64,000 nucleotides of DNA, taken from Cymbidium sinense. Its lineage: Eukaryota > Streptophyta > Magnoliopsida > Asparagales > Orchidaceae. The number at the start of each line of letters is the position of its first letter. Position 1 is the stretch's first letter. The translations under genes were made by a program, and so were the position numbers. The notes beneath the pieces were generated by a model that was not told the origin of the DNA, did not search any database, and saw nothing but the letters and a program-made list of their open reading frames with translations. The DNA lies in contig CM038228.1 in the NCBI GenBank assembly GCA_021442155.1, forward strand, positions 9,961,179 to 10,025,178. Direction: 5' to 3'. Below, in pieces: positions 23,671-50,913 of this stretch.

Positions 23671-23896
23671 TAGGGGTGTCAATTCGGGTTGACGGATCGG
23701 GTTCAGGTCCAACCCAAATTTTCATGACCTGAACCCGACCCGAATATTATATGGGTTGAAAAACCCAACCAAACTTGACTCAACTCAGACTCAAGTAGCA
23801 CAAACCCGGCCCATTTAACCTACTTATCTGATTGCTGAAATATTACAACTAACCAACGCAATCCATTTTACATAGTTACCCCAATAAAGGCAAAAA
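23671..23896. mobile_element. Left end of a hAT-like element, interrupted
   Basis: Begins with TAGGGGTGTCAA, the same terminal sequence type as the complete element at 58,917-59,694, and continues with alternating 'cgggt/acccg' and 'aacccaa' motifs typical of subterminal repeats in this group. The preceding 8 bases, CCTCCAAC, would be its target copy. The other end is not found nearby: the giant retrotransposon is inserted at 23,902, so any remainder must lie beyond 50,913, where a hAT transposase remnant exists. Confidence 0.6.
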
Positions 23897-26800
23897 AAAA
23901 TAGTGGGTTAGAAAAATTTTATATGGTCACCTTCCATCTATGGGGTGAAAAGGCAAGAATATAAAAATTCATCTTTTGGGATGCCATGCAGATCCACAGG
24001 TGTACTTATTCAGGTGATCGAGTACGTCATCAAGGAATAGTGTACTATCTCGAGAGATAGGAGTCACTCCCATTAATGGACCAAATCACCTCAATAAGGA
24101 CTCCTAAGGATGTTGGGTCTTCGAAGTATACCAGAGATTCTTCCCCTAGTTTACATGGAAAAGTAAAGCATGGTTTATTTTAAATCGGGTTAGTTAAGTT
24201 CCCTACATGGGCAAGCCCCCGTAGTTAATTACATCCTAAAGAATGGGGATTCCTTAGGAAAATTCGATTAAAGGTAAATGATCATTGTCTCTAAAGATTT
24301 CAATAGGTAGGACTATCAATCGATTGGTTTATTTTTGAAAATCAAATGGGATCGATCAAGAGAGGGAGTTCTTATCTGAAGCCAAATGAGAACAAGTAGG
24401 GGATGCTTAGGATACTAGGAAGCCTAGTAAGCACCCCAAACTACCCTATGGTTGGGCTTTATATTTTAGAAATTGAATTAGTTAGTTTGAGTGGCATTTT
24501 CATTAGAATGCTAGGGCTTACAATTCCATAATACAAGATTATGGAAATGCCTAAGAGGTGAGAATTTATGCTTATGGCCCACAAAGGGAAAAGCCACTTA
24601 AGAACCTAAACCTAGGGAGCTTTGGAGGGCCAAAAACATGACCTAAATCTAAGGCAAAATGTATTTGGTTTGCCTCCATAGAGAGGACAAACCACTGTTT
24701 GGACTTAGCTTTGTGGGTGGTCGTCAACTAACTCCTCCTATGGTTTTAAATTCATGTAGGCAAGTCATATGCTCTATGCAAGACAGTTAGGCTGCTATTT
24801 ATTTAGAAAAAGACTAAGTCCTTAAACTCACTCCCTAAAGAGACTAGATCATGTAAGGGTATGCTTCAAATGACTTAAATCTAATGCAATTCAAATTTCA
24901 TTTTATTTTCATTTTAGATAATTATTTTGACTCAAGCTAATATGATAATGCATGAGAAATGAGATTATTGGCCTAAATCGTGAGAAAGGAGGAGGTGTGT
25001 TTCATCATGGCTCTCTAAGTCAAGCTAAGTTTCTCGGCAAAGGTGGAAGCCCTCAATCAAGAGTGAAAATAATATGCATTTGTGCATGATGTTATAAAAG
25101 AAGTACTCATCCATAATGGGTTGTTAATTCTTTTATCTTAGTTTTAGCCTAAGCTTTAGGTGAGGTTATGAGTTCTTTATTTTAGTTTTGAATTGTTAAA
25201 TTTGGTAGGAGATTTATTTTTCTCCTAAGAGCCTAATCGTCATCCAGGACATACATAAAGCAAGAAAGAAACTAGAAAAAGCATGCTTTAATGCACAAGC
25301 TAAACAAATCATCAATCAATTTATAAAGCTAATCATAAAATAATAAGAGGCCATTGTGGTGAGTACCACCAAAAAAAATAAATTGGGTAGTTGAGTTCTA
25401 CCCTTATACAACCCAATTACAAATGAATTAAAGATAATTAAGCAAGGAATTCATTGTTATGGGGTTCTTCAAGCTTTCTTTCTTTATTCTTCTTTCCTTC
25501 TTTCTTCTTCTTTTCTTCTTTTTCTTTGATTCTTTCTTTTGGATGGTTGGAAGATGGATGCTCCAAAGGCTTCACATGGTACATAAGATGTAATCTTATG
25601 ACCAATGCTCATCCTAATCCCCATAATAATCATTCCAAAATCCTAATTGCAAAAATTATATGAAAAGAAAAGAATGGAAATCTAACTAACACACGAGATT
25701 AGCTAAAATAAACCACACAAATCCCAAGCATGTATATTGGACTTAGCACCCCACACATGGGTACTCAAGTCCACCTGGCCTAATGGATTATGCTCAGGTG
25801 TATAAGCACCTGCATAGCAAAAGCATTTATATTTTTATTTATGATAGCGCCTCTTAAGCACAATCCTCTATAGAAGATAATGGTTAGACTAAACCATCCT
25901 ACCATTCATTCTATGAGCATACACTAACATCTAGACTAAACCATATATCAAAAATAAAAGAAAACATCAAACCATGCACCCTAACCTAAAGTTAGAAGTG
26001 GTGACTTAATATTATGTGCTAAAGAGGTTTTTGTGGTATGCTTAGCTATGGCTTTAAGTTAGAGTTTTATAAGTATGAAGGATGTTAAACTTAGAGGAGG
26101 GTTTCATTTAAGTTATTTAGATATTTTTTGGGTTGATTTTATTTTATATTTTGATTAGGTTCAAGTGAATCCTACAATTAGTTACTAAGTTACAAAGAAA
26201 GGAAAGAGAGAACTTCTCTTTCCTTCCTTACCTTAAGTATTTTCTAAAGTAGATTCAAGCTTTGGTTTTATTTAGTGAATGTTTTATTATGTATTTTAAT
26301 TAATCCTAAGTTTAGATAAACTCTAAACAAACCTATTCAAAAAGAAAGGCATTTTAAGATTAAATAAAGTGAAATGAAATCACAAAACTCTTGTCACTTC
26401 ATTTCTTTCCCAACATGTATAACATGTATATGAATAATTCCTAAACATATCTATACATACAAATGGGAATGTTTAACACACTTTATGATGCATGCTAAGT
26501 AACTTATTTAAGAAAATTTGGATGTTTTTGATGCATGATTTTCATTAAGTAGAAAATGGATTTATTTTCCAATTTTTCACATACACACATGAATGTATGG
26601 AAGGCATAACTGAGTACAACACCATTGTTTGCACCAGGGGTGTAAGGTACAAGACCTACTTGGGGCTACTTAAAGTCTTGCAACCCCGAGGTTGTCCAGA
26701 CTAATATACCACTTTCCTTAAATACAAGCATATGTAAAAAAGATGTAAATTAAAAAGGAAAGATGCAAAGTTCATTTTTTTTTATTTGTTTGGTTTATTT

Positions 26801-28381
26801 GTTTAGTTTATATATATAAGTGTGGATGTCCTTCTAATTTGATATCATAGAGATGAATAAGAATGGATTCAAACAAGTGGTGTGCTCTTTTCAAATGAGT
26901 TATACACTTTACCAAATTTTTATTCAAAACTATGCTAAATATGAAGGAAAGGAAAAACTACACTAGACACATTTTTATATTTCCATCACATGCAAGCTTA
27001 TAAGTAAAATTTAAGTAGCACACTTTCAGTTTTGATAACTAATTCATATATTTTTGAAATTAATTTGGATTTAGTTGTGATAATAGCCATTCATATTCCT
27101 ACTTTAGCCAAAACATGCAATTTGACATACAGAAAATATTTTTATTTTTAAATTTGATTTTTGAAAAGCATGAATGTATGAAATCATATGACACACATAT
27201 TTAGCATGTTGGAAAAAAATTAAAGTGATGAAAACATGTAAATACATTCACCCTAATTAATTCATAAAGACAATCTTATGAGATAGGCATGCTTAAAATA
27301 AATCAAAGTTTGTCTTCATGTGATTTTTGTTTCATTTTTTTTGTTTTATGTTTATGTTTGATTTCAATTTGAGAAATGTGAGGTAAGTTGTTGTTCCTAA
27401 CCCATTCCCACATGTGTTCATTATCTTTGTTCAATTTTTAGATGATTAAATCAATTTTATGCTTTAGTTAGGTTAATGTGTGATTAAGTATATTAATTAT
27501 CCCTTACTTACACCACCTTAGCATAGTTAATCACATAATTATGAGCCAATGAGATGACATAAAATCACAGAAGGAATTTAAATCAACAATGCATCTAGGA
27601 AAGAAATGGCCTAATGCAATTTGGCTCATGATTAAGGATTAATTAAACTAAGGGGTTAATTTAAGTACTTTCCTAATCCCTCTCACACATGTCAATTGGA
27701 TTTGGATTTCCTTAAGCTACTTAGGTTATTGAACACCTAAGCACCTACCCAAAACAAATTAGGTGAGTTCTGGAATGTTTTTTTTATGAAATTAATTAAG
27801 GGATTAATTTACCCTTATTAAGTGAGGATTGAGGAAGGAAAGGGGTTTAAGGAATAGCTTAGGGGAAATTCCCCAAAGTTATTTCCAAACTATTCACTAT
27901 AACAGGACTTAATCAAGTTAAATAAAATATTAATTCACTAATTAAACCCTTAGTCTTAATTAAGGAGTGATTAGGGAATGAATTAGTAATTTCTCCAATA
28001 AAGCTACCAATAAATCCCTAGAAAATTAAGAGAAGTCATCCCCCAAAATATACTCAAGAAATTTGAAATTAATTAATGGCTTAATTAAAGGATAATTAAT
28101 GAAATAATATTCCTAAAGAAACTTGAAATCACAGAAAGATACATTTCAAAATCCATTGAAATCAATTTTAGAATATTCAAGGTTGAATTATCTTTCAGTG
28201 GCAATTTATCTCATATTTTTCTAATTTTTCTAAGTGGAGATATGAATTTTAGAAGTTTATATGATTAATTTGAATTAAATAAGCCTTAATTAATTTCTTA
28301 ATCCAATGGCGCATGTACGGTACGGATGCACTTTACACTCATCATCCTCCGAGTGGCCACTTAAACATCACATCGTAGTGC

Positions 28382-28387
28382 CACGTG
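28382..28387. promoter_or_regulatory. G-box (CACGTG) inside the 3' LTR
   Basis: CACGTG lies within the near-palindrome 'gtgccacgtggc' next to 'ggcggcac', in a locally GC-rich island. The same hexamer is kept in the 5' LTR at 47,945-47,950 although surrounding bases differ. G-boxes bind bZIP and bHLH factors in plants. Function in the LTR is inferred only. Confidence 0.5.
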
Positions 28388-29589
28388 GCGGCGGCACTAT
28401 GCGCTTTTGCCTCTGTAGTTTGATCAAGGATCGAACAGCTAGGATTTAATCCTCAGTTTTAAAAGGATAAAATCAGATATAAAGCGTATGTTTAATCTCG
28501 GTCTTCCATCCAAAATGTGTAGAAGGACGGCTAGAGATCTATCCCCGCCAACGCATGTGATCCATGGAGACCATCCAATCTAGGCCTTGATCCGAGCTTG
28601 ATTGAGCTCGGATTGGGATGAAATTTTGCACACACCATCTAACCCTAATGGCGAGCACATCTAATAGTTGAAACTTCATGCCATTAACATTTCTTTCACA
28701 AAGGACCAACACACATGGAGTTTAGTGATCAAAAATGTCTAACCTCAATGGAGGTGATCACCGATGCTCGATTCCCTAGGAGCTTGTCTGAGAGATGAAG
28801 CTTTGGTGAAAGTTCTAGCTCTTGAGGTTGAGTGGATAGCTCGTGGACCAACCTCCTCCAGTGAGCTCTTTGATTGAAGTGAATCTCCCTTGCCTTTGGA
28901 ACTTGGGAAAGAGGTTGGGCAAGCTCTACTTGATTCCCTGAGAGAGTGTGCAAAGGGAATTTGGTTGAATTTGAGTGTAGTGGAAGTTGGCAAATCTTTG
29001 GAGCTCCCTTATTTTTGCTTAAGGGAAAACTAAGAATGGAAAATTCAATCTCCCTCTAGAGAGCTTAGGATCACTCTAGAATCACTCTTGCTTGCTTATG
29101 CTTCAATCGATAGAGTGTGTGTGTGAATTGAGTTGAATTAGGGGGAGTATATCTCCCCCTTAGGAAATCGGATGGTCAAGCTTCACTTGCTATTTTGATC
29201 AAATTGACCTTAGGCAGTGGGTTGTTTGATCTATTAGAGGCTTCCATAGGGTCAGTTTGGCTAGATGAGTGGAATAGTAACTCCCTATGTGCTCAAATTG
29301 AGTGGAAGCATGATTCCATGTGGCCAATTTGAGCCATGTGCTTAGTTTTGGCCTTGGGTCAAGTTGGGCTTACCAAACCCATTGGGTTGGGTGCACCACC
29401 CTCCATAAGGTTTACTTGACCTATTAGGAGAGTATCAAGTAGGTATGAAGAGGAATTGACCAAAATTTATTCTATGGCATAGGGGTAGAATGTTCATTTG
29501 GCTGATTTTAGAATTTGGATATGTTGGGTATGTTGAGAAAATAAGTTTGGCCAAGTTTCATTGGATTTGGAGTCCATTTGGTATGGTTT

Positions 29590-30500
29590 GGCTCTTGTTG
29601 ACCCATTTAGGTCAAAATGGATCAACTTGAGTCAAGTTGACCAATTGGTCAAATTGGGTAAAACCAAGGGTTGGGTTAAGTTCATATGACCATTGAAAAT
29701 GTTTTAGTGGCTTTTGTTTGATTTAATTTGGTTTAGGTTTGAATTTGGTTCATATGACTTCATTTAAGTCAAATGGGTCAAGTTGACCAATTTGACCCAT
29801 TTGACCTATTTGAGCTAGGTCATGGGTAGGTTTAGGTTTGGTTTATCATATGAAGTGGATTGGTATCTTTATTTCCAGCCAATTTTGGTTAAGTTTGCTC
29901 AAAATGACCCTTTAGGTCAAGTTGGGTTCAAGGTCAATTGGGCTGGGTTAGGTCTTGTTGGCTGAGGCTTTGGTCAAGTTCAATAAGTGATTTGGAATGA
30001 ACTTGACCCATTGGTTTCAATCAATTTGGCTTAGATCAAGTTTTGACATATTTTGACTTTTAGGTCAAGTTGGGTCAACTTGGGTCGAGCCAATTGGGCT
30101 AGGTTAGGTTCAAATGTTGACTTGGTCAAGTTCAAACATTGGTCATGAATGAACTTAGATTAATGGTTTCAATCAATTTAGCCTATGGTGGATTTTGGCT
30201 ATGTTGGGTTTCATTTTGGCTAAGTGTTGACTTGGTCAACCCTTAGGTTTGACTTGATTTGACCCAATTTGATTGATTGATCATCCCATGATGATTGTTG
30301 ATCATGATGAGAGGCATAGATGGGCTTAGTTTAATCCAATTTGGTTAGGCTTAGAATTTTGCTCATAAAGGATACATTAGGTCACTTTGGGTCAAGTGAG
30401 CCTGAGTAGATCAAATGGCTTGGTCAAAGCTTGATTGGAGTTTGATTGAACTTGTTTATGGACTCATGATTGAAATATAAATCCATTTACAAGTGGTTTG
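29590..30500. promoter_or_regulatory. Dense cluster of W-box-type TTGAC(C/T) motifs in U3
   Basis: By eye I count about 26 copies of TTGACC/TTGACT or their complements GGTCAA/AGTCAA in some 900 bp, against roughly one expected by chance. The cluster is 1.0-1.95 kb from the LTR start in element orientation and is kept in the 5' LTR (49,160-50,000), in the fragment at 16,150-17,120 and in that at 21,940-22,450. TTGAC(C/T) is the WRKY binding core. Part of the density may stem from old short-period duplication. Confidence 0.55.
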
Positions 30501-31544
30501 AAGTCAAATGGGCTTTGGTTCATTTGACAATTTCATATTCAAAGGGTGAACATGAAATGGACTTGAGTTTGATTTTTGAATTGGGTTTTGATTTGGTGAT
30601 TGAAGTTTGTATTTATATTTGGGTTCATGATTGTAGGATTGATTGAATCATGAAAGAAAATCAAGAGTTTGGCTTGATTTGAAGTTGATTTGGCTAAGTT
30701 CAAAATTTTGACTTGAAAGACTTAGGTTGGATTTTGATTGAATTTGAGTTTGATTTTTGGAGTTGATTTTGGTTGTTTGAATTTATATTTCATTTATATA
30801 TGTGAATATAAATGAGAATATAAATGGGTTATGTGAAAATTTCAAATAGTTTAAGTGATTTGAAGTTGATTTGAGCTAAGTCCTTAAGAGGGAATTGAAG
30901 GACTTTGAAAATATTTGGAATTTGGAATTTCAATTTGGATATTGATTTGATTGATTTGAATTTATATCTCATTTATATATGTGAATATAAATGAGAATAT
31001 AAATGGGTTATGAGAAAATTTCATGAATTGGAATTAATTTAGATTTGATTTAGGCTGTCCATGATGGGAGATCGAAGGACTTAGCCAAGATTTGGAATTT
31101 GGAATTTCAATTTGGAAAATTTATATCTTATTTATATATGTGAATATAAATGAGAGTATAAATGAGTTGTGAGGAAATTTATGAGTTTGAATTGATTTGA
31201 AGATGATTTAGGCTAAGTCCTTAAGAGGGAATTAAGGACTTAGCAAATATTTCAAACTTGGAATTTCAATCATGTGATATTGATTTGAGTTTGGAGAAAA
31301 TCAAATAAGATTCATTTGGAGTTTTGACTTGAAGGAAGGAAGGTGAGGAATGGTTCAAGCTAAGGGTAGGAAAATTTTTCTAACACCCCTAAGGCATGAC
31401 CTATTCTTATAGCTAACTCTAAGTCTAGGGGTTGAGTGTCCAATCACTAGATGTGTCTTAAGACTAAGGATGCGTTAAAGTCTAAGAGGAGTCCTATGTC
31501 TAAGATGGAGGGGTTGAGAGCTCACTCTAAAAATGAGGTCAACA

Positions 31545-31718
31545 AAGGGCTCCCAATAGGTGTGGTGTGACTGACAAGGAACACCACACATATTGGTGTT
31601 GACCAAAATAATCAACAACACCGAAAGATCACAAGCACTAATAAATAATCTACCCCTAACCCAAGGTGTAGAAAGAATCTAGAGCTTAGTGCAATGTGGC
31701 TCTACTTATGTCCAAGAC

Positions 31719-35610: not shown

Positions 35611-35928
35611 CTAGGCCAATAGCTTCATGGTATACTCATGGTAATGATGAAGCTTGGGTTTGAGAACCTTGTAGGATCCGATAATCTGAATGATGACCAA
35701 CTGGGAATCCCCAAAGATGTTTATGCTCTTAACACCGATGATGATGGCTAACTCCAGACTGACAATCAATGCCTCATACTCAGCTTCATTGTTGGTGCAG
35801 GGGTTGGAAAGATAATATGAGAATCTCATCACATTACGGTCTGAGTTAGAAGAACTATTCCTACTCCTGCCTTTCTTGGGAGAATAGATCATGGTGCTTC
35901 TTTGTGAAAAGAAGTCATCAAAATACAT
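35611..35928 (-). pseudogene. Second (archaeal-type) RNase H of the giant element
   Basis: A 105-codon frame with MYFDDFFS at the start (the family has MYFDG...), NNEAEYEAL (catalytic Glu), FGDSQLVI (catalytic Asp) and HHYHEYTMKLL. This extra RNase H domain between the RT-linked RNase H and integrase is a hallmark of Tat/Ogre elements. The segment is open over its core, but the neighbouring frames are broken. It would degrade the RNA strand during reverse transcription. Confidence 0.88.
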
Positions 35929-35934
35929 CTCCCG

Positions 35935-37507
35935 GTGGTTCGACCTCCCCTAAGTTCATGATTTGTTCATCAGGGAGATCATCACTAAGCGGAGAATCAG
36001 CAAGCAGTGGGTGTGTTGTTAAGAAATCTGCTAGTGCCTATCCTTTTATCGCACGGAGGGGTACGAATGTGATGTCAAACTACAAGAGTATCATGGACCA
36101 ACGTGCCAAACATCCAGATTGCATTGGTCGTGTCATGAGATACTATAGTGGATTTGTTCTGAAGATCAAGTTCACCTTATGAGAAAGCATGTAGTACCAT
36201 AGCTTTTGAAAAGCAACGATCAAAGCTAGGCAATGATTCTCAATAGGTGGATAGTTTTCTTTAGCAGGAATCAAATGAAGACTGAGATAGTAAAGAGTGA
36301 TTTCCTTTCCTTCGTCATTATCTTGGGCCAGAGCAGAGAGTCATCATCAATGGTAGAGGATGAGTGGCACGGGATAGGGATTGCTAAAACTAGCAGCTTC
36401 ACCAAATACTGCTTGATATATTCAAAGGCATACCGCCACTTATCATCCCAGTTGAACTTGGCATCCTTTTTGACAAGTGCAGAAAATGGCTTGCATCTCC
36501 CCGATAGGTTGGAGATAAAGCATCTTAGATATGCCAGTCATCCTTGGAAGGATCTGAGTTATGTTAGACTTTTAGGAGGAGACATTTCTAAGATAGCTTT
36601 GATCCTTTCAGGATCTACCTATATTCCCCAAACAAACAACAAAGAATTTCCCTACTACTAAATGCACACTTCAGGGGATTCATTTTGAAGTTATATTATC
36701 TTAACCGTTCAAAATTACCCTTAAGTCAAAGATGTGGTCTACCTTTTCTCTGCTCTTAACTACTAGATCATCAACATAGCACTCAACCTAATGATGGATG
36801 AATTCATTGAAGATCTGAGTCATGGCCCGTTGGTATGTAGCACCAGCATTTTTAAGGCTGAATGGAATGACCTTATAACAAAAGATTATGATCGAGGTTC
36901 GAAAAGCAGTGTTTCTTTCATCTTCGGGAGACATCTTGATTTGGTTGTAGCCAGATGACCCATCCATGAAAGAAAACATTGCATGAGATGAGGCAATGTC
37001 CACCATTAATTTTGGTATAGGAAGAGAAAACTCATCCTTAGGACATGCCTTGTTTAAGTCCCTGAAATTGATGCATATGCGAATTTGGCCATTCTTCTTT
37101 TTAACTAGGACATCACTGGCTAACCAGGTAGGGCATTTTTCTTCCTTGATGAAGCCAACATCGATTAGTTTCTTGACCTCAGAAATGGCCTGTTGTTTGA
37201 TTTTTAATCGCATGAGTCTAGGAGCTTTCTTAATAGGGGTAGCATTAGGATCTATTGCTAGCTTGTGGACTACTACATCAGGAGATAATCCGGACATCTC
37301 TTCATAACTCCATGCGAAGTAGTCTTTAAACTTAATCAATAGCCTAACTAAGTCATTAGTTTCTTCTTCATTCAACAACGAGCTGATGTATCGGGTGTGA
37401 ATTTTCTTCTGTCCCGAGGTTGATTTCTTTAAGCTTGTCAATTGTTGAGTGGATCTCCTCTTCAAATTTTGGAGGTGCATCCTTGATTTGAAGATCTTCT
37501 GAATCAT
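35935..37507 (-). pseudogene. Reverse transcriptase and first RNase H of the giant element
   Basis: The 239-codon frame 37,507-36,788 contains the RT leader (FAWSYEEMSGLSPDVVVHKL), GFIKEEKCPTWLAS, VLVKKKNGQIRICINFRDLN, FMDGSSGYNQIKMSPEDE, and KNAGATYQRAMTQIF. A stop follows HH at 36,788; directly after it the frame continues with VECYVDDLVVKS, placing the catalytic YVDD at 36,778-36,767. Further blocks in shifted frames near 36,600-36,430 are VDPERIKAILEMSPPKSL, ISNLSGRC.PFS and F.WDDK, i.e. connection and first RNase H. Motifs are clear but stops and frameshifts kill the protein. Confidence 0.92.
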
Positions 37508-37509
37508 TT

Positions 37510-38275
37510 GAGGTTTCTAAACACACATTTTCATAAGAGTTGGGGTTGTGTGAAAAGAACCTATCAGACTCCAAATGATTGATAACAATCAAATAGTAAT
37601 CATCGTCATTGACTGGACCCACTGTACTGAATCTTAGTCCTAATCTTGATTGTGCTTCCCTTCCTATATTGTTCCAAAGTTTCTCAAAATGCTTTGACCT
37701 GTGCCTGGACCATGTATGAGGAACAAACCTTTCTATATAAGATTTTGAACATAAGGCGAGTAAAAGTCAAATGGTAATTCCATTAATTCTTTAAATGAAT
37801 CCTCCTCAAGTTTTACATCAACTTCTGGACTTGAGGATGATGAACCCAAAAAGAATCTATTCAGCTTTATATATTTGGAAGATTGAGGGGTTTTTTTAAC
37901 TACTAAACCTTCAACTTTTTGGGATGAAAGTGAGGTTAGAGCTAAGGTTCCCAATTGATCTTTAATAGTTTTACATGCATCTGATTCGAATATTTTGCCT
38001 TATCTGGAGGTCTGGTCTTCATCATTGTCTGGATCGAAAGTCACCTCCAATGGACCCTGCTGAGAGGGGTTGGCAGGTATACTAATCACATGAGACTTGT
38101 CCTCTGAGCTGGATTCCAAATTTATGTGAATAGTAGGGGTACTCCTACGAACTAGAACATAACCCATGTTGGCTGATGGCCAATCAGAGGGTCTTCCACC
38201 TTTGGAACTGCCTCTATTTTTGCCTGTGCCTCTGCCCGAACTCCAACATGGAGGCTACGGTGGAGGCTGGTAGGG
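37510..38275 (-). pseudogene. gag-RT linker / protease region of the giant element
   Basis: Acidic, Ser-rich frames (37,954-37,733 and 37,622-37,368) lie between gag and RT. The last one ends with KLKEINLGTEE, the conserved lead-in to Tat-type RT. A clear protease active site (D-S/T-G) was not seen, perhaps because of decay. The stretch near 38,100-38,275 reads HINLESSSEDKSHVISIP in one frame. Confidence 0.6.
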
Positions 38276-38280
38276 CTGCC

Positions 38281-39060
38281 TCATTGGTGGTAGAGGAGTG
38301 GAGGCTGCTGAGGTCGTGCTCTCTCGAATCGATCTCTAGCTGGCTGTTTCCCCTTATCTACTGCTATAATTTCCCCGGGCTTCTTATCAAAAGCTTTCTG
38401 CGGCTTTTGCTTAGTTGATTGGTTGGAGAAAGGTGACTGTTTAGCTTCTCCTTGTAAGCTAGCCTCCTTGTTGATTAATTTCTCAAAGGTTTTGATGGTG
38501 AAACCCTTGAGCATGAAGGCGACCAGGCCATGGATATTCTTAAGTAGAATCTCGATGGCATATTGTTTGAACAACTGTGGTTCGCATTTCATGCTCAAGT
38601 TACGGCACTTGAGAATGAAATCAATGAGGGACTCAATAGGATTATGTTGGGCCATAATGAGATCGCCAATAGTCACCCTTTGCTGAGCTCTAGCAAACCT
38701 CTTGATGAAGAGTTGCTCTAACTCGAAAAGTCTTCAATTGGGAATTTCTACCAATCAAATGCTATCCCCCGCTTGACAAAGAGGCAAAAAGTAAAGCATC
38801 TACCACCGTCATTACAACTAGCTATGAAAAATGTGCTCTCGTTTCCACTGCCATCAAAGCTTTTGAAAGATGGTGGCACAAACCTTTGGGGTACTGGATG
38901 GTATCAAATTCCTCCATGTAGGATCTACCCTTTGGAACTGATGATCCCCCTCGGGCTTGAGCCAATGCTTCTTTTACTTGCTACTCAACCATGGATTTTA
39001 TGTCATTTTATTGTATGGAGGTACTTTCCACTACCTTCCTATACATGTTAGTGCTACCTT
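38281..39060 (-). pseudogene. gag of the giant element, decayed
   Basis: The frame 38,676-38,281 has TIGDLIMAQHNPIESLIDF, then RNLSMKCEPQLFKQYAIEI, and GLVAFMLKGFTIKTFEKLIN, followed by a Lys/Gln-rich tail. In the frame before it, FIKRFARAQQ can be read near 38,700. This is the capsid part of a Tat-type gag. Zinc knuckle not seen. The N-terminal part above 38,770 is only faintly recognisable. Gag would form the cytoplasmic particle for reverse transcription. Confidence 0.75.
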
Positions 39061-40930
39061 ACTCAATGGGAGGCAAGGTCTTGGCTGGGTCCAAGACATG
39101 CACTAACTATGGCTGACTGATCTCAGTTGTAGTAGGATGAACTGCTGGTGCTTGTTTTTGAAGTATTGAGACTGCCGCTAACAAGTCCTCAGGTTGCTTT
39201 GCAATCATATCTATTTTTTCATCTTTCTATTTTAATTATGCTAGGAGGTGTTGATGCTAGTGGGCTATGACTTCTTACTCAACATCATCACCTTCCATAG
39301 CTCTCAGAGGAGAGAACTTTGTGTATCAACCATGTAGACTCCAACTGAGTCTCCCAATAAATCATCTTCATTGAGATCAAAGCTAATCTTTTCTTCATCA
39401 GACCAATCATATCCCAATATCTCCTTCTTTTCCATGAAATAATGATCCCTATCTCATCTAAAGAATGATCAATCTGAATAGGAACATATGACTTGGGCTG
39501 ACTGATGTGATCACTGTCATGTACTGAGAGGCACCAAACCTCCCATGCTGCCAGAGAATCAATCCTATGAGGACTATACTCACTAAAAGATATACACTCC
39601 TAACTATCACTAACTCTAAAAGGTGTGACATTCCTAAGAGGCTTTGCAATCATCGATGTAATAGGGCTATCATCTGCTCTCTCTACAACTATAGTAACCA
39701 TCTCCAAATCCTACTATACTGGTGGTGTTGGTGAGGAACGGCCACTATGCTTCAGGGTTGTCACTCCTTCACCACCACTGGGGCAGAAGGTCAAGCACGA
39801 GAGCTCGACCTCTCCACAGTAGGTGGTGTAGATGGTGTAGGATCCCTCGGACGTAGCCGGATCACCAATGGGGTACGCTTCTCCCCGGATATGGCCTTCA
39901 TGGCCTTCTATAGAATTGGAGATGTTGTGATGTGAACTGGTGATGGCAGACGGGGGGTAGAGCGATGTGGTGGAGACACCACCGACACTCTATGAACAGG
40001 AGCTATCCTCTTGTGATGAATGGTCCCAGTAAGTAGGATGATATTTGTATGGTCGGCGGGTAGCATGCCGAGCTAGAAAATCGATGAGTGCAGAAGCTGG
40101 CAACTGGCAACTGAATCTCGCCTCTCCCTACTGGTGATTTGAACAGATGTATGGGCCTCTTTGGCCCTCTCTTGTCGTAGATGTTTCCCCACACTATGAA
40201 GGATGATGGATCTCAAATCAAATTGAGCTATGGACTCTAAACATCTGTAAGCTCAGCCAACATGGCATAAGACTGATCGGAGGCCGACATACGACCTCCA
40301 ACTCCTGGTAACTGAGGGTTGGTGTTGAACCACTGGTGGAGGTGAAGTGTGGATCCTCCAAGCATCATCTCTGTCTGACCCAGAGAGGATGAAATTGGTA
40401 CGTTGTAACCAGCGGGGTGATCAAAGTAGGTACCTCCTCTTCTATTGGCGAGGCCTCCATCTCCTAACAATCCTAGTATGATCTTGATCATGTGGTTTTA
40501 TTTCTCCTTTGTGTCTAGTAGGATGAGCGAGTGAGAACTAGACCCAACCTTAAAGGCCGGGAGGCAATCTGGAATGAGCCTTACCCTAGAAGGTGCCAAA
40601 GAGTTGGTGCTAGCCCCACTAGGGTAGCATGGAAACCACTGGCGGGGCTCACTCCTTTCTTCCAGTGGAACCCACTACTTTCCTCTTGAGATGTCGATCA
40701 GAAGGTAGATCGATCTGGATGACCGGCTTCTGCCTAGCCACCAGTCCTACTGACAGTTGTGAAGGGAGTGCCCTCACAGGTGATCTTTACTCCCTCAAAT
40801 CCTCTACCGAAATGGATAAGGTGGGTATGATCAGCTCGGGAGATTGGCCTGATCCAAGGCCAAGTCCATGCCTTATGGGAAAGTGAACATAAACTTCTAG
40901 GAAGTTTCCATAGTATCAACTGAAAACTGA
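39061..40930 (-). other. GC-richer leader region upstream of gag, possibly a decayed extra ORF
   Basis: Clearly richer in GC than its surroundings, with many short frames on both strands (for example - strand 40,491-40,237 and 40,194-40,003), none recognised. Ogre-type elements often carry an extra ORF of unknown function before gag, and this is the position where it would be. I cannot show coding here: stops are frequent in every frame I followed. Confidence 0.4.
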
Positions 40931-41039
40931 ACTGTATTGAAAATGTAGTCTATCACTGAACGGAGTTTGCAATATTGAAACTAGACTTGCATCAGATTTC
41001 TATTGATTTTTAAATATGAATTTGAATTTAAAATTTGAT

Positions 41040-43110
41040 CCTACATCCAACATCTTGGAAGTGTTAAGTGGGGTTCAAATGGATTTAGAGAAGATTTTGA
41101 ATTTTTATTGGAAAGAGGAAATTTTGAATATGAATCCAACTTCAACAAATTTAGGTATGTTGAGAAGTGGAATCTAATTTTTTAGAAGGATGCTTCCATA
41201 GGTTCATGTTTGAAATTGGATTTTGATTTGAAGACCTTTCCTTTAACAAATTTGGGTATGTTAAAGTAAGGGTCAATTAGTTTTATTTTGATTTGAAATT
41301 TTGAAATTCACTCTTAGCAAATTTGGGTATGCTAAGTGAGGTGTTTGAAAATAATTGTTCCTTTGGTTTGGTTTGCTTTGTCTTGTGATTTGTTGTTGAT
41401 TTTGAAAGTTGGAATTCCCATTTAGCAAATTTGGGTGCTAAATGAAGAACCCAAGTGTGTTTTATTTTGAAAGAATTTTGAAAATAGAATTCTTAGCAAT
41501 TTTGAGTATGCTAAGAAACTCCTAAAGTGTTTCATTTGTTTTGGAAATTTTGATTTTGGAAAAAGTAGGATTCTTAGTAAATTTAAGTATGCTAAGGGAA
41601 TTCTAATGTGTTTCATTTGATTTTGATTTGTTTTTGATTGAAAGTGGAGACCTTACTTTAGCAAATATGGTATGTTAAAGATGAAGTTCCACTTAAGTGA
41701 AATGAAAATTTCACTTAGCAAATTTGAGTATGCTAAATGAAATTCCAATAGATGTGTTTGAAACTTTATGTTTTAGTTTTGTTTTGAAAATGGAAACTTC
41801 TCTTTGGCAAATTTAGTATGCTAAAGAGTGAAGTTCCAAAAGTGTTCGAAAATTTTTGATTTTGAATTTGGAGACTTTACTTAGCAAATTTGAGTATGCT
41901 AAATGAAGTTCCAAATGTGTTTTGAATATTTCTTGGTTTTGAATTTGGAAACTTCACTTAGCAAATTTGAGTATGCTAAATGAAGTTCCAAATGTGTTTG
42001 AAAAACTTTTGTCTTGGAATTTGGAAACTTCACTTAGTAAATTTGAGTATGCTAAATGAAGTTCCAAATGTGTTTGAAAATTTTTTTGGTTTGAATTTGG
42101 AAACTTCACTTAGCAAATTTGAGTATGCTAAATAAAGTTCCAAATGTGTTTTGAATTTTGAAAGTATAATTGTTAAGTCTTAATTTTTTGAGAAAAAGAC
42201 TTCCATTCAACAAATTTGTGTATGTAGAAGTGGAAGCCAATCTTATTTTCTTTGCAAATGTGAAAATTTTGTCTTGTGTGTGATTATTATTTTGGAAAGG
42301 AATTCCAACTTAATCATATATGGGATATGTTTAAGTGGGATTTCCAAATGATGTTATTTTTATTTGGGAATGAAATCTTCATTCAATAAAATTGGGTATA
42401 TTGAATGGAGATGTTCATATGTGCTTTTAAAAAAAATATTTATATTGATTTTGTTTTGGGAATGAAACCTCCATTCAATAGATTTGAGTATATTAAATGG
42501 GAAGGTTTCATATGTGATTTTTGAAAGTTCATTCTTGATTTTGATTTTGAAATGAAACATCCATTCAATAAATTTGAATATATTGAATGGCAAAATTTCA
42601 TGTGTGCTTATAGAAAATTTATTTTGATTGTGATTAAAATGAAACCTCCATTTAATAAATGTGGGTATATTGAATGGAGAGGTTTCATATGTGCTTTTGA
42701 AAGTTCATTTTAATTTTGTTTTGAATGAAACCTCCATTCAATAAATTTGAATATATTGAATGGCAAGATTTCATGTGTGCTTTTGAAAAAATTTATTTTT
42801 GATTGTGGCTAAAAATGAAACATCCATTCAATAAATTGGGTATATTGAAAGGAGAGGTTTCATATATGCTTTTTGAAAGGTGTGAATTCCAACTCAACAC
42901 ATGTGGAATGTGTTGAGTGAAATTTCAAAATTGTGATTTTGGTTTGAAGATAGAATCCATCCAACACATTTGGATGTATTGAATGGAAATGCTCATCTTC
43001 AAATTTTGTGTTTTTTTGAAAGATAATTATTGTTGGAATTTTATTTTTATGAAGATGATCTTCACATATAACAATCATAAAGATTGTTAGATGAAGATGA
43101 TTTAGGAATA
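41040..43110 (-). repeat. Array of at least 24 tandem imperfect hairpins in the retroelement leader
   Basis: Each unit has a left arm, a loop close to 'aaatttgagta', and a complementary right arm. Loops recur every 74-78 bp in the middle (41,948, 42,022, 42,100) and every 86-92 bp further right (42,372 to 42,816). Arms differ between groups but stay paired: TTAGCA with TGCTAA (41,310-42,142), TTCAATA with TATTGAA (42,372-42,861), CTCAACACA with TGTGTTGAG (42,884-42,926), AACAATC with GATTGTT (43,070-43,090). Outer stems such as GAAACCTCC with GGAGAGGTTTC also pair. It lies between the primer site and gag, so it would be in the genomic RNA leader. Confidence 0.9.
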
Positions 43111-43493
43111 TTTTTGTGCAAAATATTTTATTTAGTGCATTTTGAAAGAGTGATTTTAAAAAAAGCAAGATTCTTTTTTCATGGAATAATTTATTTCTCT
43201 TTATTATTTTAGAATAAACATTTCCTTATCATAAAAATGATAAGCATTAAGTCTTTAAATATTTTCTTTTTATTTAGATCTTTTTTTATTTTTTCCCATT
43301 GGAGAACCCAACGGGGGTTTTAAGACCAACACGAGGTGAGGTCCTAAAACCTAAAGATGTTGATAGCTTAACTTAAGGATGAAATAAGCTAAGAGCCAAT
43401 GGAAAGAAGAATAGTCTCGGATTCATACAAAAGTACAAACCCACTATCGATGCTTAGACAATGATCATTTACCAAAGATGGAGAGAGGAATCA
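43111..43493 (-). other. 5' leader next to the primer site
   Basis: Non-coding leader between the hairpin array and the primer binding site. Contains the block 'cccattggagaacccaacgg' (43,295-43,314), a possible short hairpin (CCCATTGG with CCAACGGG). No gene. Confidence 0.5.
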
Positions 43494-43511
43494 TCCCCAG
43501 TGGAGTTGCTA
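43494..43511 (-). promoter_or_regulatory. Primer binding site, tRNA-Arg type
   Basis: The - strand reads TAGCAACTCCACTGGGGA, 8 bases after the end of the 5' LTR. It matches 15 of 18 positions of TGGCGACTCCGCTGGGGA, the complement of a plant tRNA-Arg 3' end including CCA as I remember it; Ogre-type elements are known to use tRNA-Arg. All three differences are G-to-A on this strand, as expected for deamination of methylated C on the other strand. Confidence 0.85.
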
Positions 43512-43519
43512 GAAAAATC

Positions 43520-46500
43520 TGTGGGTTAGAAAAAATTTTATATGGTCGCCTTCCATCTGTGGGGTGAAAAGGCAAGAATATAAAAATTCATCTTTTTGGG
43601 ATGCCACATAGATCCGTGGGTGTACTTATTCAGGTGATCAAGTATGTTATCAAGGAATAGTACTATGTGAGATAGAGTCAACGCCCTTTAATGGACCTAA
43701 TCACCTTAAGGACTCCTAAGGATGTTAGGTCTTTGAAGTGTACTAGAGATTCTTCCCCTACTTTACATGGAAAAGTAAAGTAGGGTTATTTTAAACTGGG
43801 TTCGTTAAGTTCCCTACAGGGGCAAGCCCCCAAAGTTAATTACATCCTAAGAAATGGGGATTCCTTAGGAAAACTCTCGATTAAGGTAAATGATCATTGT
43901 CTCTAAAGATTTCAATAGATGGGACTATCAATCGATTGATTTATTTTTGGAAAATCAAATGGGATCGATCAAGAGGAGGGAGTTCTTATTGAAGATAAAT
44001 GAGAATAAGTAGGGAATGCTTAGGATACTAGGAAGCCTAGTAAGCACCCCAAATTACCCTATGGTTGGGCTTTATATTTTAGAAATTGAATTAGTTCATT
44101 TGAGTGGCATTTTCATTAGAATGCTAGGGCTTACAATTCCATAACACAAGATTATGGAAATGCCTAAGAGGTGAGAATTTATGGTTATGTCCTATAAAGG
44201 GAAAAGCCACCTCAGAATCCAAATCTAGGGAGCTTTGGCAAAACACCTAAATCTAAGGAGAAAATGGGTGGTTTGCCTCCATAGAGAGGACAAACCACTT
44301 TACTTGTATTACAACCCGGGGTGGGCCAACTCCTATGATTTTAAATTCATGTAGGCAAGTCATATGCTCTATGCAAGATAGTTGGGCTGTTATTTATTTA
44401 GAAAGAGACTAAGTCCTTAAAGAGACTAGATCATGTAAGGGTATGCTTCAAATGACTTAAATCTAATGCAATTCAAATTTCATTTTATTTTCATTTTGGA
44501 CAAATATTTTGACTCAGGCTAATAGGATTCATATGCCTAATGCATGAAAAATGAGATTATTGGCCAAAATCAGTGAGAAGCAAGAAGGTGTGTTTCCACC
44601 ATGGCTCTCATAGGTCAAGCCAAGTTTTCCTGGAAAGGTGGAAGCCCTCCAATCAAGAGTAAAAATAATATGTATTTGTGCATGATGTTATAAAAGAAGT
44701 ATTCATCCAGCTAATAGGTTGCTAATTCTTTTATCTAGATTTTTAGCATAAGCTTTAGGTGAGGTTATGAGTTCTTTATTTTTAGTTTTGAATTGTTAAA
44801 CTTGGTAGAAGATTTATTTTTCTCTTAAGAGCTTAATCATCATCCAGGCCATACATAAAGTAAGGAAGAAACTAGGAAAAGCATGCCACTTAATACGTAA
44901 GCTAAACAAATCATCAATCAATTTATAAAGCTAATCGCAAAAGTATAAGAGGCCATTGTGGTCGGGTACCATCGCACAAACTAAAAAATAAATTGGGTAG
45001 CTGAGCTCTACCCTTATACAACCAAGATTATAAATGAATTAAATACAATTAAGCAAGGAATTCATTATTATGGGAATCTTCAAGCTTTCTTTCTTCATTC
45101 TTCTTTCCTTCTTTCTTCTTCTTTTCTTCTTTCTTCTTTGGTTCTTTCTTTTGGATGGTTGGAAGATGGATGCTCCAAAGTCTTCACATGGTACATAAGA
45201 TGTAATCTTATGACAATGCTCCTAATCCCCATAATAATCATTCCAAAATCTTAATTGCAAAAATTACATGAAAAGGAAAAGAATGAAAATCTAACTAACA
45301 CCTGCACAACAAAGATTAGCTAAAACAAACCACACAAATCCCAAGCATGTATATTGGACTTAGCACCCCATACATGGGTACTCAAGTCCACCTAGCCTAA
45401 TGGATTATGCTTAGGGGTATAAGCACCTGCATAATAAAAACATTTATATTTTTAATTATGATAGCGCCCCTTAAACATAATCCCCTGCAGAAGATAATGG
45501 TTAGACTAAACCGTCCTACCATTCATTCTATGAGCATACACCCTAATATCCAGACTAAAACATATATCACAAAATAAAAGAAAATATGAAATCCTACATC
45601 ATCCAAACCTAAAGCTAGAAGTGATGACTTAGCCTAATGTGTGTGCTTTAGAGGTTTGTGTGGTATGCTTGCTATAGCTTTAAGTTAGAGTTTTATAAGT
45701 ATGAAGGATGTTTAACTTATAGGAGGGTTTCATTTAAGTTGTTTAGATGTTTTTGGTTGATTTTATTTTGTGTTTTGATTAGGTTCAAGTGAATCCTACA
45801 ATTAGTTACTAAGTTATAAAGAGAGGAAAAGAGAAGAGAACTTCTCTTTACTTCCCTACCTTAAGTAATTTCTAAAGTAGATTCAAGCTTTGGTTTTATT
45901 TAGTGGATATTTTATTATGTGATTTAATTAATCCTAAGTTTATTTAAACTCTAAACAAACCTATTCAAAAAGAAAGATATTTTAAGATTAAATAAAGTGA
46001 AATGAAATCACAAAACACACATCACTTCATTTCTTTCCAACATGTATAACAAGCATATGAATAATTCCTAAACATATCTATACATACAAATGGGAATGTT
46101 TAACACACTTTATGATGCATGATAAGTAACTTATTTAAGAAAATTTGGATGTTTATGATGCACAATTTTCATTAAGTAGAAAAGGGATTTCTTTTCCAAT
46201 TTTCACATACACACATGAATGTATGAAAGGCATAAGTGAGTACGGCACCATTAGCACCATATGGCACCATTGTTACCGGGGTGTAAGGTACAAGACCTAC
46301 TTGGGGCTACTTAAAACCTCACAATCCAGTTCATACTAATATACCATTTTCTTATAATAAAGTTCTGATTTGATAACATGAGATGAATAAGAATGGATTC
46401 AAACAAGTGGTACATCTTTTCAAATGAGCTATACACTTTACCAAATTTTATTCAAAATTATGCTAAATATGAAGGAAAGGAAAAAACTACACTATACACA

Positions 46501-49500
46501 TCTTTATATTTCCAACACATGCAAGCTTATTGGTAAAATATAAGTAGCACACTTTCAGCTTTGATAATTGATTCATATATTTTTAAAAATAATTTGGATT
46601 TAGTAGTGATAATAATAGCCATTCATATTTATACTTTAGCCAAAACATGCAATTTCACATAAAGAAAATATTTTCATTTTTAAATTTGATTTCTGAAAAG
46701 CATGAACATATGAAATCATATGACACACATATTTTGCATCTTGGGTAAGAATTAAAGTGATAAAAGCATGTAAATACATTCACTCTAATTAATTCATAAA
46801 GACAATCTTATAAGATAGGCATGTTTAAAATAAATCAAAGTTTGTCTTCATGTGATTTTATTTCATTTTTGTTTTATGTTTATGTTTGATTTTAATTTGC
46901 AAAATGTGAGGTAAGTTGTTATTCCTAACCCATTCCCACACCTGTTCATTATCTTTGTTCAATTTTTATATGATTAAATCAATTTTATGCTTTACTTAGG
47001 TTAAGGCATGATTAAGTGTATTAATTATCCCTTACCTACACCACCTTATCGTAGTTAATCCAATAATTATGAGCCAATGAGATGACATAAAACCACAGAA
47101 ATTTAAATCAGCAATGCACCTAGGAAAGAAAGGGCCTAATGCAATTTGGCTCATGATTAAGAATTAATTAAACTAAGGGGTTAATTTAAGTACATTCCTA
47201 ATCCCTATCACACATGTGAATTTGATTTGGATTTCCTTAAGCTACTTAGGTTATTGAACACCTAAGCACCTACCCAAAACAAATTAGTTGAGTTCTAGAA
47301 TGTTTTAAAAATTTATGAAATTAATTAAGGGAGTAATTAGTGAATTGCCCTTAATTAAGTGAGGATTAAGGAAGGAAATGGGGTTTAAGGAATAGCTTAG
47401 GAAATTGCCCAAAATTATTTTATAAACCTCCTATTCATTGTATGAGACCTTAATTAACTTAAATAAAGGATTAATTTACTAATTAAACCTTTAATTAGCT
47501 TAATTAGATTAAGGGAGTGATTTGGGAATGAAATAGCAATTTCCCCAATTAAGCCACCAATAAATCCCAAAAACTTAGGAGGTAAAAGTCATCCCCCAAA
47601 ATATACTCAAGAAATTTGAGATTAATTAATAGTTTAATTAAAGTATAATTAATAAAACAACATTCCCAAAGAAACCCAAAATTAGAGAAATATACATTTT
47701 TAAAATCCATTAAAATCAATTTTAGAAAATTCTAGGGTGAATTATCTTTCAGTGGAAATTTATTTCATATTTTTTTTATTTTTCTAGGTGGAGATACAAA
47801 CTTTAGAATTTTATATGATTAATTAGAATTAAATAAGCCCTAAATAATTCCTTAATCCAACGGGGTGACACGCATGCAACTGACTCGGATACACTTTACA
47901 CGCATCGTCCTCCAAGTGGCCACTTAAACATCACATCATAGCTTCACGTGGCGGCGGTGCTATGTGCTTTTGCCTCTGTCGTTCGATCAAGGATCGAACG
48001 GTTGGGATTTAATCCGTAATTTTAAAAGGATAAAATCAGATCTAAAGTGTATGTTTAATTTTGGTTGTCCATCCAAAATGTCTGGATGGATGGCTAGAGA
48101 TCTATCCCTCCTAACTCCTGTGATCCATGGAGATCGTCCATGTTCTAGGCCTTGATTTGAGCTCGATTGAGCTCAAATTAGGATGAAATTTTGCACACAC
48201 CATCTAACCCTAATGGCGAGCACATCTAATGATTGAAACTTCATGCCATAAACATTTCTTTCACAAAGGACCAACACACATGGAGTTTAGTGATCAAAAA
48301 ATGTCTAACCTCATCGGAGGTGATCACCGGCGCTTGATTCCCTTGGAGGAGCTTATGCGGTTGAGACAAAGCTTTGGTGAAAGTTCTAGCTCTTGAGGTT
48401 GAGTCGATAGCTCTATGGACCAACCCCTCCTCCTAGTGAGCTCAGTTTTAATTGAAGTGAATCTCCCCTTGCCTTTGGAACTTGGGAAATAGATTGGGCA
48501 AGCTTGACTTGATCCCCTGAGGTAATGTGCAAAGGGAATTTTGTTGAATTTGAGTGAAGTGGAAGTTGGCAAATCCTTGGAGTTCCCCTATTTTTTCTTA
48601 AGGGAAAACCAAGAATGGCAAATTCAATCTCCCTCTCGAGAGCTTAGGATCACTCTAGAATCACTCCTCTGGCTTCCTATGCTTCAATAGACAGAGTGTG
48701 TGTGTGAATTGAGTTCAATTAGGCAATCGGACGGTCGAAGCTTCACTTGCCTTTTTGATCAACCTTAGGCAGTGGGTTGTTTGATATGTTAGAAGCTTGC
48801 ACATGGTACTTGGCTAGGAGTGGAATGGTAACTCCCATGTGCTCAAATTGAGTGGGAGCATGATTCCCATGTGGCCAATTTGAGCCATGTGCTGGCCTTG
48901 GGTTAAGTTAGATGACCCAAACCCATTGGGTTGGGTGCACCACCCTCCATAGGGTTTACTTGACCTATTAGGAGAGTATCAAGTAGGCATGAAGAGGAAT
49001 TGACCAAATTCCCCATGCATTTAACTAAAATTTGTTCTATGTCCTAGGGGTATAATGGTCATTTGGCTTATTTTTGAATTTGGATATGTTTGGTATGTTG
49101 AGAAAATAGGTTTGGCCAAGTTTCATTGGATTTGGAGTTCATTTGGTATGGTTTGGCTCATGTTGACTCATTTAGGTCAAAATGGGTCAACTTGAGTCAA
49201 GTTGACCAATTGGTCAAATTGGGTCAAACCAAGGGTTGGGTCAGGTTCATATGACCATTTGAAATGTTTTAGTAGCTTTGGTTTGATTCAATTTAGTTTA
49301 GGTTTGAATTTGGTTCATATGATTTAATTTAGTTCAAATGAATCAAGTTGACCAATTTGACCCATTTGACCTATTTGAGCTAGGTCATGGATAGGTTTAG
49401 GTTTGGTTAGTCATATGAAGTGGATTGGTATCTTCATTTCCAATCAATTTTGGTTAAGTTTGAATTTGGCTCAAAATGACCCTTTAGGTCAAGTTGGGTT

Positions 49501-50908
49501 CAAGATCAATTGGTTAGTCTAATTGGCCTATTGAGGCTTTGGTCAAGTTTAATAAGTGATTTGGAATGAACTTGACCCATTGGCTTCAATCAATTTGTCT
49601 TAGATCAAGTTTTGACACATTTTGACTTTTAGGTCAACTTGGGTCAATTTGGGTCAAGTGGTAGGATAGGTTCAAATGTTGACTTGGTCAAGTTCAAATA
49701 TTGGTCATGAATGAACTTAGATCAATGGTTTCAATCGATTTGGCCTATGATGGATTTTGGTTATATTGGGTTTCATTTTTGGCTAAGTGTTGACTTGGTC
49801 AACCCTTAGGTTTGACTTGGTTTGACCTAATTTGATTGATTCATCATCCCATGATGATTGTTGATCATGATGAAAGGCATACATGAGCTTAGTTCAATCC
49901 AATTTTGTTAGGATTAGAATTTATCTCATAAAGGATACTTTAGGTCACTTTGGGTCAAGTGAGCCTAAGTAGGTCAAATGTCTTGGTCAAAGCTTGATTG
50001 GAGTTCAATTGAACTTGTTTATGGACTCATGATTGAAATATAAATCCATTTACAAGTGGTTTGAAGTCAAATGGGTTTTGTTTCATTTGATAATTTCATA
50101 TTCAAAGGGAATATGAAATGGATTTGTGTTTGATTTTTGAATTGGGTTTTGATTTAGGATTGAAGTTTGTATTTATAATTAGGTTCATGATTGTAGGATT
50201 GATTGAATCATGAAAGAAAATCAAGAGTTTGGCTTGATTTGAAGTTGATTTGGCTAAGTTCAAGATTTTGACTTGAAAGAATTAGGTTGGATTTTGATCG
50301 AATTTGAGTTTGATTTTTGGAATTTCAATTTGGATATTGATTTGATTGATTTGAATATTTCATTTATATATTGAATATAAATAAGAATATAAATAGGTTA
50401 GAAAATTTCATGAATTGGAATTGATTTAGATTTGATTTAGGTAAGTGAAGGGAGATTAAGGACTTAGAATTTAGAATTTGGAATTTCAATTTGGAATTTG
50501 AATTTATAAATGAGTTGTGAGAAAATTTTATGGGTTTGAATTTATTTGAAGATGATTTAGGCTAAGTGTTTAAAATTAAGGACTTAGAAAATATTTCAAA
50601 CTTAGAATTTCAATCATGGATTTCAATCATGTGATGTTGATTTGAGTTTAGAAAATCAAATAAGATTGATTTGAGTTTTGGCTTGAAGGAAGGAAGGTGA
50701 CGAATGGTTCAAGCTAAGGGTCAAATTTTCTTAACACCCCTAAGGCATGACATATTCCTATGGCTAACTCTTCTAAGTCTCTAGGGCTAGGTTGAGTGTC
50801 CACCTAATCACAAGATGTGTCTTAAGACTAAGGATCCCTTAAAGTCTAAGAGGAGTCCTATGTCTAAGATGGAGGGGTTGAGAACTCACTCTAAAAATGA
50901 GGTCAACA
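43520..50908 (-). repeat. 5' LTR (7.4 kb) of the giant retrotransposon
   Basis: Starts TGTGGGTTAG and ends GAGGTCAACA on the + strand (TG...CA). Pairs with 23,902-31,544. In element orientation transcription would start within it and run towards 43,520. It keeps the G-box (47,945-47,950), the TTGACC cluster (49,160-50,000) and the pyrimidine-rich block (45,085-45,150). No gene was recognised in it; frames such as 48,241-48,572 on the - strand have counterparts in the other LTR but no known domain. Confidence 0.92.
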
Positions 50909-50913
50909 AGAAT

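Follow-up and report, generated by a model that had tools for sequence, protein, structure and literature searches.

Tandem covarying hairpins in the leader of a probable Tat-like LTR retrotransposon of Cymbidium sinense

Between its primer-binding site and its first open reading frame, an LTR retrotransposon of the orchid Cymbidium sinense carries about 25 tandem hairpins whose arms change together, between the units of one array as well as between copies of the element, beyond what shared ancestry explains. At a probability of roughly 0.55, we read this leader as a modular structured-RNA domain, perhaps a multivalent packaging or assembly signal. The element lies within a stretch of 64,000 nucleotides (the window, to which all coordinates refer), and its relatives were sought in one 3.53-Gb assembly.

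Architecture of the Element

The open reading frame piece encoding reverse transcriptase (RT; 36788..37516; Pfam RVT_1, E 2.4e-12) lies on the minus strand, so the element is oriented minus, like all of its features given below, and the right LTR is the 5′ LTR (43513..50909, about 7.4 kb). By blastn this LTR matches the 3′ LTR (23896..31545) at 87.5–88.1% identity in two main pieces. The adjoining primer-binding site (43494..43511), placed from aligned copies, is degenerate in the window copy, which carries two changes from a motif that is clear in other copies; genome-wide, exact matches to the motif number 826 for variant one and 1,358 for variant two, and the reversed control gives 0. A leader of about 2.6 kb separates the LTR from the start codon (40867..40869) of a conserved reading, MDLALDQA, that meets a stop 12 codons after the start in the window copy. 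The exact start-codon motif is present in 14 of 87 loci, which correspond to 11 distinct places including the window, with ATG at 8 of the 11; most of the remaining loci differ at, or stop short of, the motif. The array occupies 41033..43103 of the leader and was delimited by fold energy, stem finder and covariance model. Its position between primer site and first open reading frame, proposed by an earlier sequence-only reading of the window, is borne out.

Paired LTRs, a primer-binding site adjoining the 5′ LTR and a reverse transcriptase mark the element as a Ty3/gypsy LTR retrotransposon, the gypsy assignment coming from a reading of the RT sequence rather than from a tree, and it is probably Tat-like. 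A mark of the Tat clade is an additional RNase H (aRH), which in Ogre and Retand sits between the RNase H and integrase domains (PMC6317226, in excerpt); Pfam finds a single RNase H-like match in the element, downstream of RT (35611..35949; RVT_3, E 2.9e-8). No significant Pfam family was found for the presumed integrase piece and none for the piece after the array, which is gag by position only, and a comparison of the RT piece with viral contigs returned no relative. Rfam gave no match at gathering score in window 38000-46000, where three weak miRNA-family matches reached 20.9–23.4 bits against gathering scores of 74–140.

The Hairpin Array

All 24 hairpins listed in the sequence-only reading exist, 23 of them being recovered by a stem finder and the one at 41,569 as a weak covariance-model match; the stem finder itself returns 24 hairpins at 41,033–43,103, 23 of which are on that list, for a total of about 25 with the weak unit. 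Counted from the primer site, hairpins 1 (43052..43103, with double changes) and 2 (42946..43000) were detected by the stem finder, and hairpin 3 (42883..42927, TGTGTTG type) by both stem finder and model, the model scoring higher on the other strand. Both methods also detect hairpins 4 (42815..42863), 5 (42725..42774), 6 (42639..42688), 7 (42552..42601) and 9 (42370..42418), all of TTCAATA type, as well as hairpin 8 (42462..42511), of TTTAATA type. Hairpin 10 (42299..42345), found by the stem finder, shows isolated double changes. It is followed by hairpin 11 (42193..42244) and by the TTAGCA-type hairpins 12 (42095..42145), 13 (42019..42069), 14 (41943..41993, the top model score in the window) and 15 (41866..41916), then by hairpins 16 (41791..41838) and 17 (41702..41749), each with double changes, and hairpin 18 (41642..41694), all eight supported by both methods. 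The weak hairpin (41564..41605) is a model match only (E 0.042). Beyond it, stem finder and model agree on hairpins 19 (41486..41522), 21 (41298..41352), 22 (41233..41274, TTTAACA type) and 23 (41127..41179), and the stem finder adds hairpin 20 (41409..41454), with a paired change among copies, and hairpin 24 (41033..41080), the last before the open reading frame, which is aligned across copies and was absent from the earlier list.

Units in the window have 13–22 pairs, in many cases divided between an outer and an inner stem. They recur roughly every 80–90 nt, separated by linkers rich in A and poor in G, and almost all point the same way relative to transcription. Examples of co-changing arms given in the sequence-only reading, such as TTAGCA/TGCTAA, proved correct on inspection of the units. 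Its loop 'aaatttgagta' is indeed recurrent, but was read from the wrong strand, being the complement of the transcribed loop, which is typically UACYCAAAUU. Near-identical units occur in two sub-arrays, within 41,777–42,151 and 42,358–42,879, that look like recent duplications.

The fold is strong, and within the window the array is confined to the leader. Counted without regard to strand, the array has 23 stems; 60 dinucleotide shuffles average 4.8 and never exceed 9, and ten other window pieces of 2.08 kb have 1 to 11. Local fold energy on the transcribed strand is -411.9 versus -205.3 (sd 10.8) in 30 shuffles (z -19.2), compared with z -8.0 for the other strand of the array and z -2.7 to -7.7 for six other 2.16-kb window pieces. 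Searched across the whole window at E up to 1, the covariance model returned 33 matches, 32 of them at 41,037–42,992 (16 of these leader stretches had been used to construct it) and a single one outside the leader, at E 0.44.

Covariation Between Units and Between Copies

Among 34 aligned units from two groups of elements, 86.8% of cells are paired, versus 36.0–48.5% when the partner is slid, and the covariation score of 0.437 (0.250 expected, sd 0.017) was reached in 0 of 500 shuffles, with two-sided changes at ten of the twelve pairs. The 16 window units alone score 0.490 versus 0.279 (sd 0.029). The count of further pair types shows no excess over shuffles in either the 34-row or the 16-unit set. 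Unguided, RNAalifold predicts eight of the unit pairs, six of which have two-sided changes.

At the level of copies, double changes were counted on a tree built from non-stem columns, with node states assigned column by column and partners shuffled within pair type to give the null; loci L001–L008, comprising the window locus itself and longer-flank duplicates of retrieved copies, were excluded from the alignments. Forty leaders gave 9 double changes on internal branches versus 0.8 (maximum 4) and 28 on terminal branches versus 9.0 (maximum 20). In a set of 58 leaders, 18 of which span only the first 1.5 kb, internal branches carry 26 double changes against 2.4 expected (maximum 7.2 of 300) and terminal branches 46 against 15.8 (maximum 31).

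Because misaligned units cause some clustered double changes, isolated changes (one per hairpin per branch) and a within-hairpin null were also used. Isolated double changes make up 43 of the 72, versus 16.6 expected (maximum 28), and are spread over 16 hairpins, 25 of the 43 lying outside the two homogenized sub-arrays. The within-hairpin null, which is stricter, gives 26 versus 5.4 (maximum 11) on internal and 44 versus 27.5 (maximum 37) on terminal branches. A null matched for pair type, cytosine context and site rate leaves an excess in both directions: changes of G-C to A-T type number 16 versus 1.7 (maximum 6) on internal and 28 versus 13.7 (maximum 23) on terminal branches, and the opposite type 10 versus 0.7 (maximum 4) and 14 versus 2.6 (maximum 8). 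When only isolated changes are counted under this null, the G-C to A-T type reaches 10 on internal branches (maximum 6) and the opposite type 8 on terminal branches (maximum 7), and two classes do not exceed the null maximum, namely the internal A-T to G-C type (2, null maximum 3 or 4) and the terminal G-C to A-T type (20, maximum 20). The clearest single case is the hairpin at 41,409–41,454, where most outside copies have C-G and the 14 copies of the window clade have U-A, a state that locus L046 reached independently.

The claim that the arms change together beyond shared ancestry is thus upheld by an excess over both the tree-controlled and the within-hairpin nulls, and the array shows the covariation beyond phylogeny that marks a conserved structured RNA. 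Deamination in a shared sequence context was considered as a source of the double changes and rejected: every one of the window's 110 C-G stem pairs is in CHH context on both sides, and the excess in the opposite direction, a direction that hangs on midpoint rooting, also counters it.

Distribution of the Array

Thirty-nine other copies were retrieved with the array as query, so that they speak to how well it is conserved rather than to how often it occurs. Past the first 380 nt of each stretch, and with flanks included, the strand-neutral finder detects 13 to 23 hairpins per copy (23 in the window), and 10 to 20 loops are of the common type (19 in the window). Of twelve further matches that span nearly the full leader, ten lie within 2.4 Mb on contig C15 (8.46–10.83 Mb) and form a local cluster of close copies; the other two are on C13 and on a small contig.

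An independent sample was provided by loci picked by primer site alone, beginning with the thirty exact sites that come first on contig C1, a non-random choice in which L056 and L057 are near-identical. By blastn, 18 of these loci are window-like (group I), six belong to a diverged group II, and two other groups hold three each. Across the 30 loci, a covariance model built from 34 units made 312 matches with E no higher than 0.1; the 300 matches listed lie in 24 loci, all downstream of the primer site, and none of the 300 falls in the remaining six. The second primer variant adds an array in five of six loci. Overall, 29 of the 36 primer-site loci carry the array, which occurs in at least two diverged families but is not universal among elements with this primer motif, as it is missing from L050, L072, L074, L052, L055, L064 and L086. 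Absence of the array from other copies, or of covariation beyond a few ancestral unit types, had been named in the sequence-only reading as grounds for giving up its proposal; these 29 loci and the excess over the ancestry nulls speak for it on both counts.

Trained on nothing but the 16 window units, a second model yields 47 sense matches and one antisense match in five group II loci (E no higher than 0.01), and no match in seven control loci without the array. With pairs modeled, 46 of the 47 group II units score higher (the differences range from -0.7 to +21.4 bits), 27 of them by 10 bits or more. The corresponding model without pairs makes 54 matches at E 0.01 versus 48 with pairs, the E-values of the two models not being comparable.

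What Maintains the Pairing

Two mechanisms had been offered in the earlier reading, selection on the fold and quasi-palindrome correction, and our results favor the first and disfavor the second. Under correction, template switching during reverse transcription or replication would rewrite one arm from the other with no selection. Consistent with this, stems overall are not slower than linkers (internal-branch substitution rates are 0.0102 for loop, 0.0099 for stem and 0.0109 for linker), double changes exceed the null on terminal branches also, and a few hairpins, such as that at 42,884–42,926, score better on the opposite strand. However, rewriting should copy transversions too, and isolated double changes that include a transversion are at the null level (5 versus 4.3), while isolated double transitions number 38 versus 18.3 (maximum 25). 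This excess of transitions only favors stepwise change through tolerated intermediates, and arm copying would not predict it. Nor does correction account for a loop orientation that is constant in nearly all units, for the confinement of G to stems on one strand or for the confinement of the array to the leader, and we consider it an unlikely source of the pairing.

Selection on the fold as the preferred explanation raises the question of which strand folds. The pairing is most likely kept in the genomic RNA; base composition, the orientation of the loops and a weak wobble signal point to this strand. In the window, read on the transcribed strand, G accounts for 15.0% of the bases in stems, 0.9% of those in loops and 5.1% of those in linkers, and the corresponding values are 14.8/2.4/5.7% in group I and 14.8/3.5/9.9% in group II. 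Tests based on wobble pairs give weak evidence for the transcribed strand. Single changes that form G-U are tolerated better than those that form A-C, with odds of 1.47 (95% 1.05–1.92) on internal and 1.20 (0.99–1.47) on terminal branches. Unit-level counts are even and speak against a strand preference: the inner nine pairs of the 34 units hold 8 G-U and 9 A-C, and distinct wobble contexts are 148 G-U versus 151 A-C in group I and 15 versus 15 in group II, although with repeats counted group I has 492 versus 276. Mean hairpin energies also differ little between sense and antisense in group I (-13.60/-13.43, 123 hairpins) and group II (-12.16/-12.26, 47 hairpins), the window copy having -15.09/-13.98. 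Broken pairs of traceable origin were compensated or reverted in ratios of 20:16 for G-U, 9:15 for A-C and 4:11 for other mismatches, with 188 further events lacking a traceable origin; the bias is small and in the direction expected of RNA.

Single changes away from Watson–Crick pairs occur at 0.36–0.52 of the linker rate on internal and 0.53–0.64 on terminal branches, and part of this reduction is probably linker misalignment, since terminal branches show it too. The equal rates of loop, stem and linker imply that the likeness of the loops may owe much to common descent, and loop conservation was rejected as proof of a binding site, the loop being no more constrained than the linker within the family. 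A protein that reads the loop is possible. A kissing-loop or antisense partner was likewise sought and rejected: complements of 10 loop bases are absent from the transcribed strand of the element, and of shorter 8-base complements one form occurs twice (once per LTR) and another four times, with no fixed partner. The AAATTT found in many loops is self-complementary and is not kept in all units.

Possible Functions of the Array

The reading of the leader as a modular domain joins several proposals of decreasing strength. Selection acting on genomic RNA from active copies would preserve the base pairing, and arrays would expand and contract through duplication of units. Many similar hairpins side by side might then act as a multivalent cis-acting signal; by binding them, the element's own Gag could select the genomic RNA, condense it or bring it into pairs for reverse transcription. 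A function in packaging or assembly is suggested by position, by modularity and by analogy with the roles of leader hairpins in retroviruses and Ty1. A fuller version, which we put forward tentatively and hold to be distinctly less probable, sees interchangeable modules that duplicate freely and keep fold and loop while their arms drift pairwise, giving a multivalent platform on the genomic RNA in a leader nearly without CG and CHG.

The array could instead serve translation, starting gag synthesis far from the cap by shunting, by internal entry through the A-rich linkers or by splicing out. Plain scanning to the open reading frame is unlikely given the 29 AUGs in the array, which shows no avoidance of upstream AUGs (27.6 in shuffles, sd 3.6); the linkers are 47.7% A, and the long stretches between LTR and gag in Diaspora and Ogre, noted as unexplained (PMC1142308, in the sections available), would fit as well. 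Yet one or a few structures would be enough for translation, without two dozen modules, and we doubt that it is what the array is for.

Less probable again is a relation to host silencing, in which the hairpins feed Dicer and methylation has burnt out CG and CHG, or in which the array was selected to escape maintenance methylation. Hairpins correlate with small RNAs in maize elements according to the excerpted survey (PMC10760457), and the array is strikingly poor in both contexts, with 1 CG versus 34.8 and 0 CHG versus 28.3 expected from base content, against observed/expected values of 45/208 for CG and 44/169 for CHG in the LTR of the same copy. The 58 aligned arrays have 94/1401 CG and 96/1024 CWG, with no CG column in at least five copies and one CWG column in six, so that active ancestors were probably almost without such sites; TG and CA, raised to 1.36 and 1.38 in these arrays, are consistent with past loss by deamination. 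However, two leaders without the array are CG-poor as well (1/22.9 and 4/27.7), though less depleted of CHG (8/19.4 and 10/23.1), and a control trinucleotide, G-A/T-C, is itself scarce within the array (9 versus 25.1). Host processing would moreover select against the fold, not for paired change, and stems of 13–22 pairs are short for plant Dicer precursors.

That a few ancestral unit types and unit swapping explain the paired differences, a view to which the two near-identical sub-arrays and some clustered double changes from misaligned units lend color, is largely refuted by the number of isolated double changes, by their spread over hairpins and by the majority of them that lie outside the homogenized sub-arrays.

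Comparison With Known Elements

To our knowledge, a modular, copy-number-variable packaging domain is known from no LTR element. The hairpins in the leaders of retroviruses act in packaging and dimerization. Those of the Ty1 leader, as described in the part of PMC5454406 available, are likewise cis-acting hairpins close to the 5′ end of genomic RNA and are backed by compensatory mutations. Both kinds of leader have few distinct hairpins with defined partners, unlike the two dozen similar modules described here.

Among plant elements, the sequence-only reading places the known tandem repeats of Tat/Ogre mainly in the 3′ untranslated region, in agreement with the excerpted text of PMC7004042. 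Those repeats share with the array a broad lineage and a tandem, non-coding nature that varies between families, but they lie downstream of gag-pol and are described there as hypervariable, whereas the array is upstream, palindromic and covarying, with an order conserved across related copies. Sireviruses, too, are plant LTR elements with numerous palindromic repeats in non-coding sequence, although theirs, as described in PMC2829016, have a CGG-CCG core and sit within the LTR, ahead of the TATA box, in contrast to the leader position, variable arms and near absence of CG found here. Unusually long leaders are also found in the LTR-to-gag regions of Diaspora and Ogre, related Ty3/gypsy elements, for which the available portion of PMC1142308 mentions no hairpin array. 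A maize survey reports Ty3 elements without an obvious structure peak (PMC10760457, in excerpt). In the open-access literature, searched by titles and abstract openings and with subscription papers mostly outside its scope, no hairpin array in the leader of an LTR element was found among the matches listed.

Tat/Ogre elements are very abundant in some plants, Ogre making up 45% of one Lathyrus genome (PMC7004042, in excerpt), and the meaning of the long leaders is stated as open for Diaspora and Ogre in the sections available of PMC1142308. Repeated hairpins that covary offer a concrete candidate for the role of long Tat/Ogre leaders. They also show in nature how a structured RNA evolves when tandem duplication is combined with compensatory change, each molecule containing dozens of internal replicates, and would, if the packaging function is correct, form a packaging domain built of repeats that is modular and variable in copy number.

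LTRs and Neighboring Sequence

The start of the LTR (50300-50909) is mildly G-poor on the transcribed strand too, at 9.3%. Tandem repeats of about 180 nt lie inside the left LTR (30562-31288) and are apparently fewer in the right LTR. Elsewhere in the window, 15345-21633 holds LTR-like stretches in the opposite orientation, about 76–82% identical to the LTRs of the element, which are the remains of a related element.
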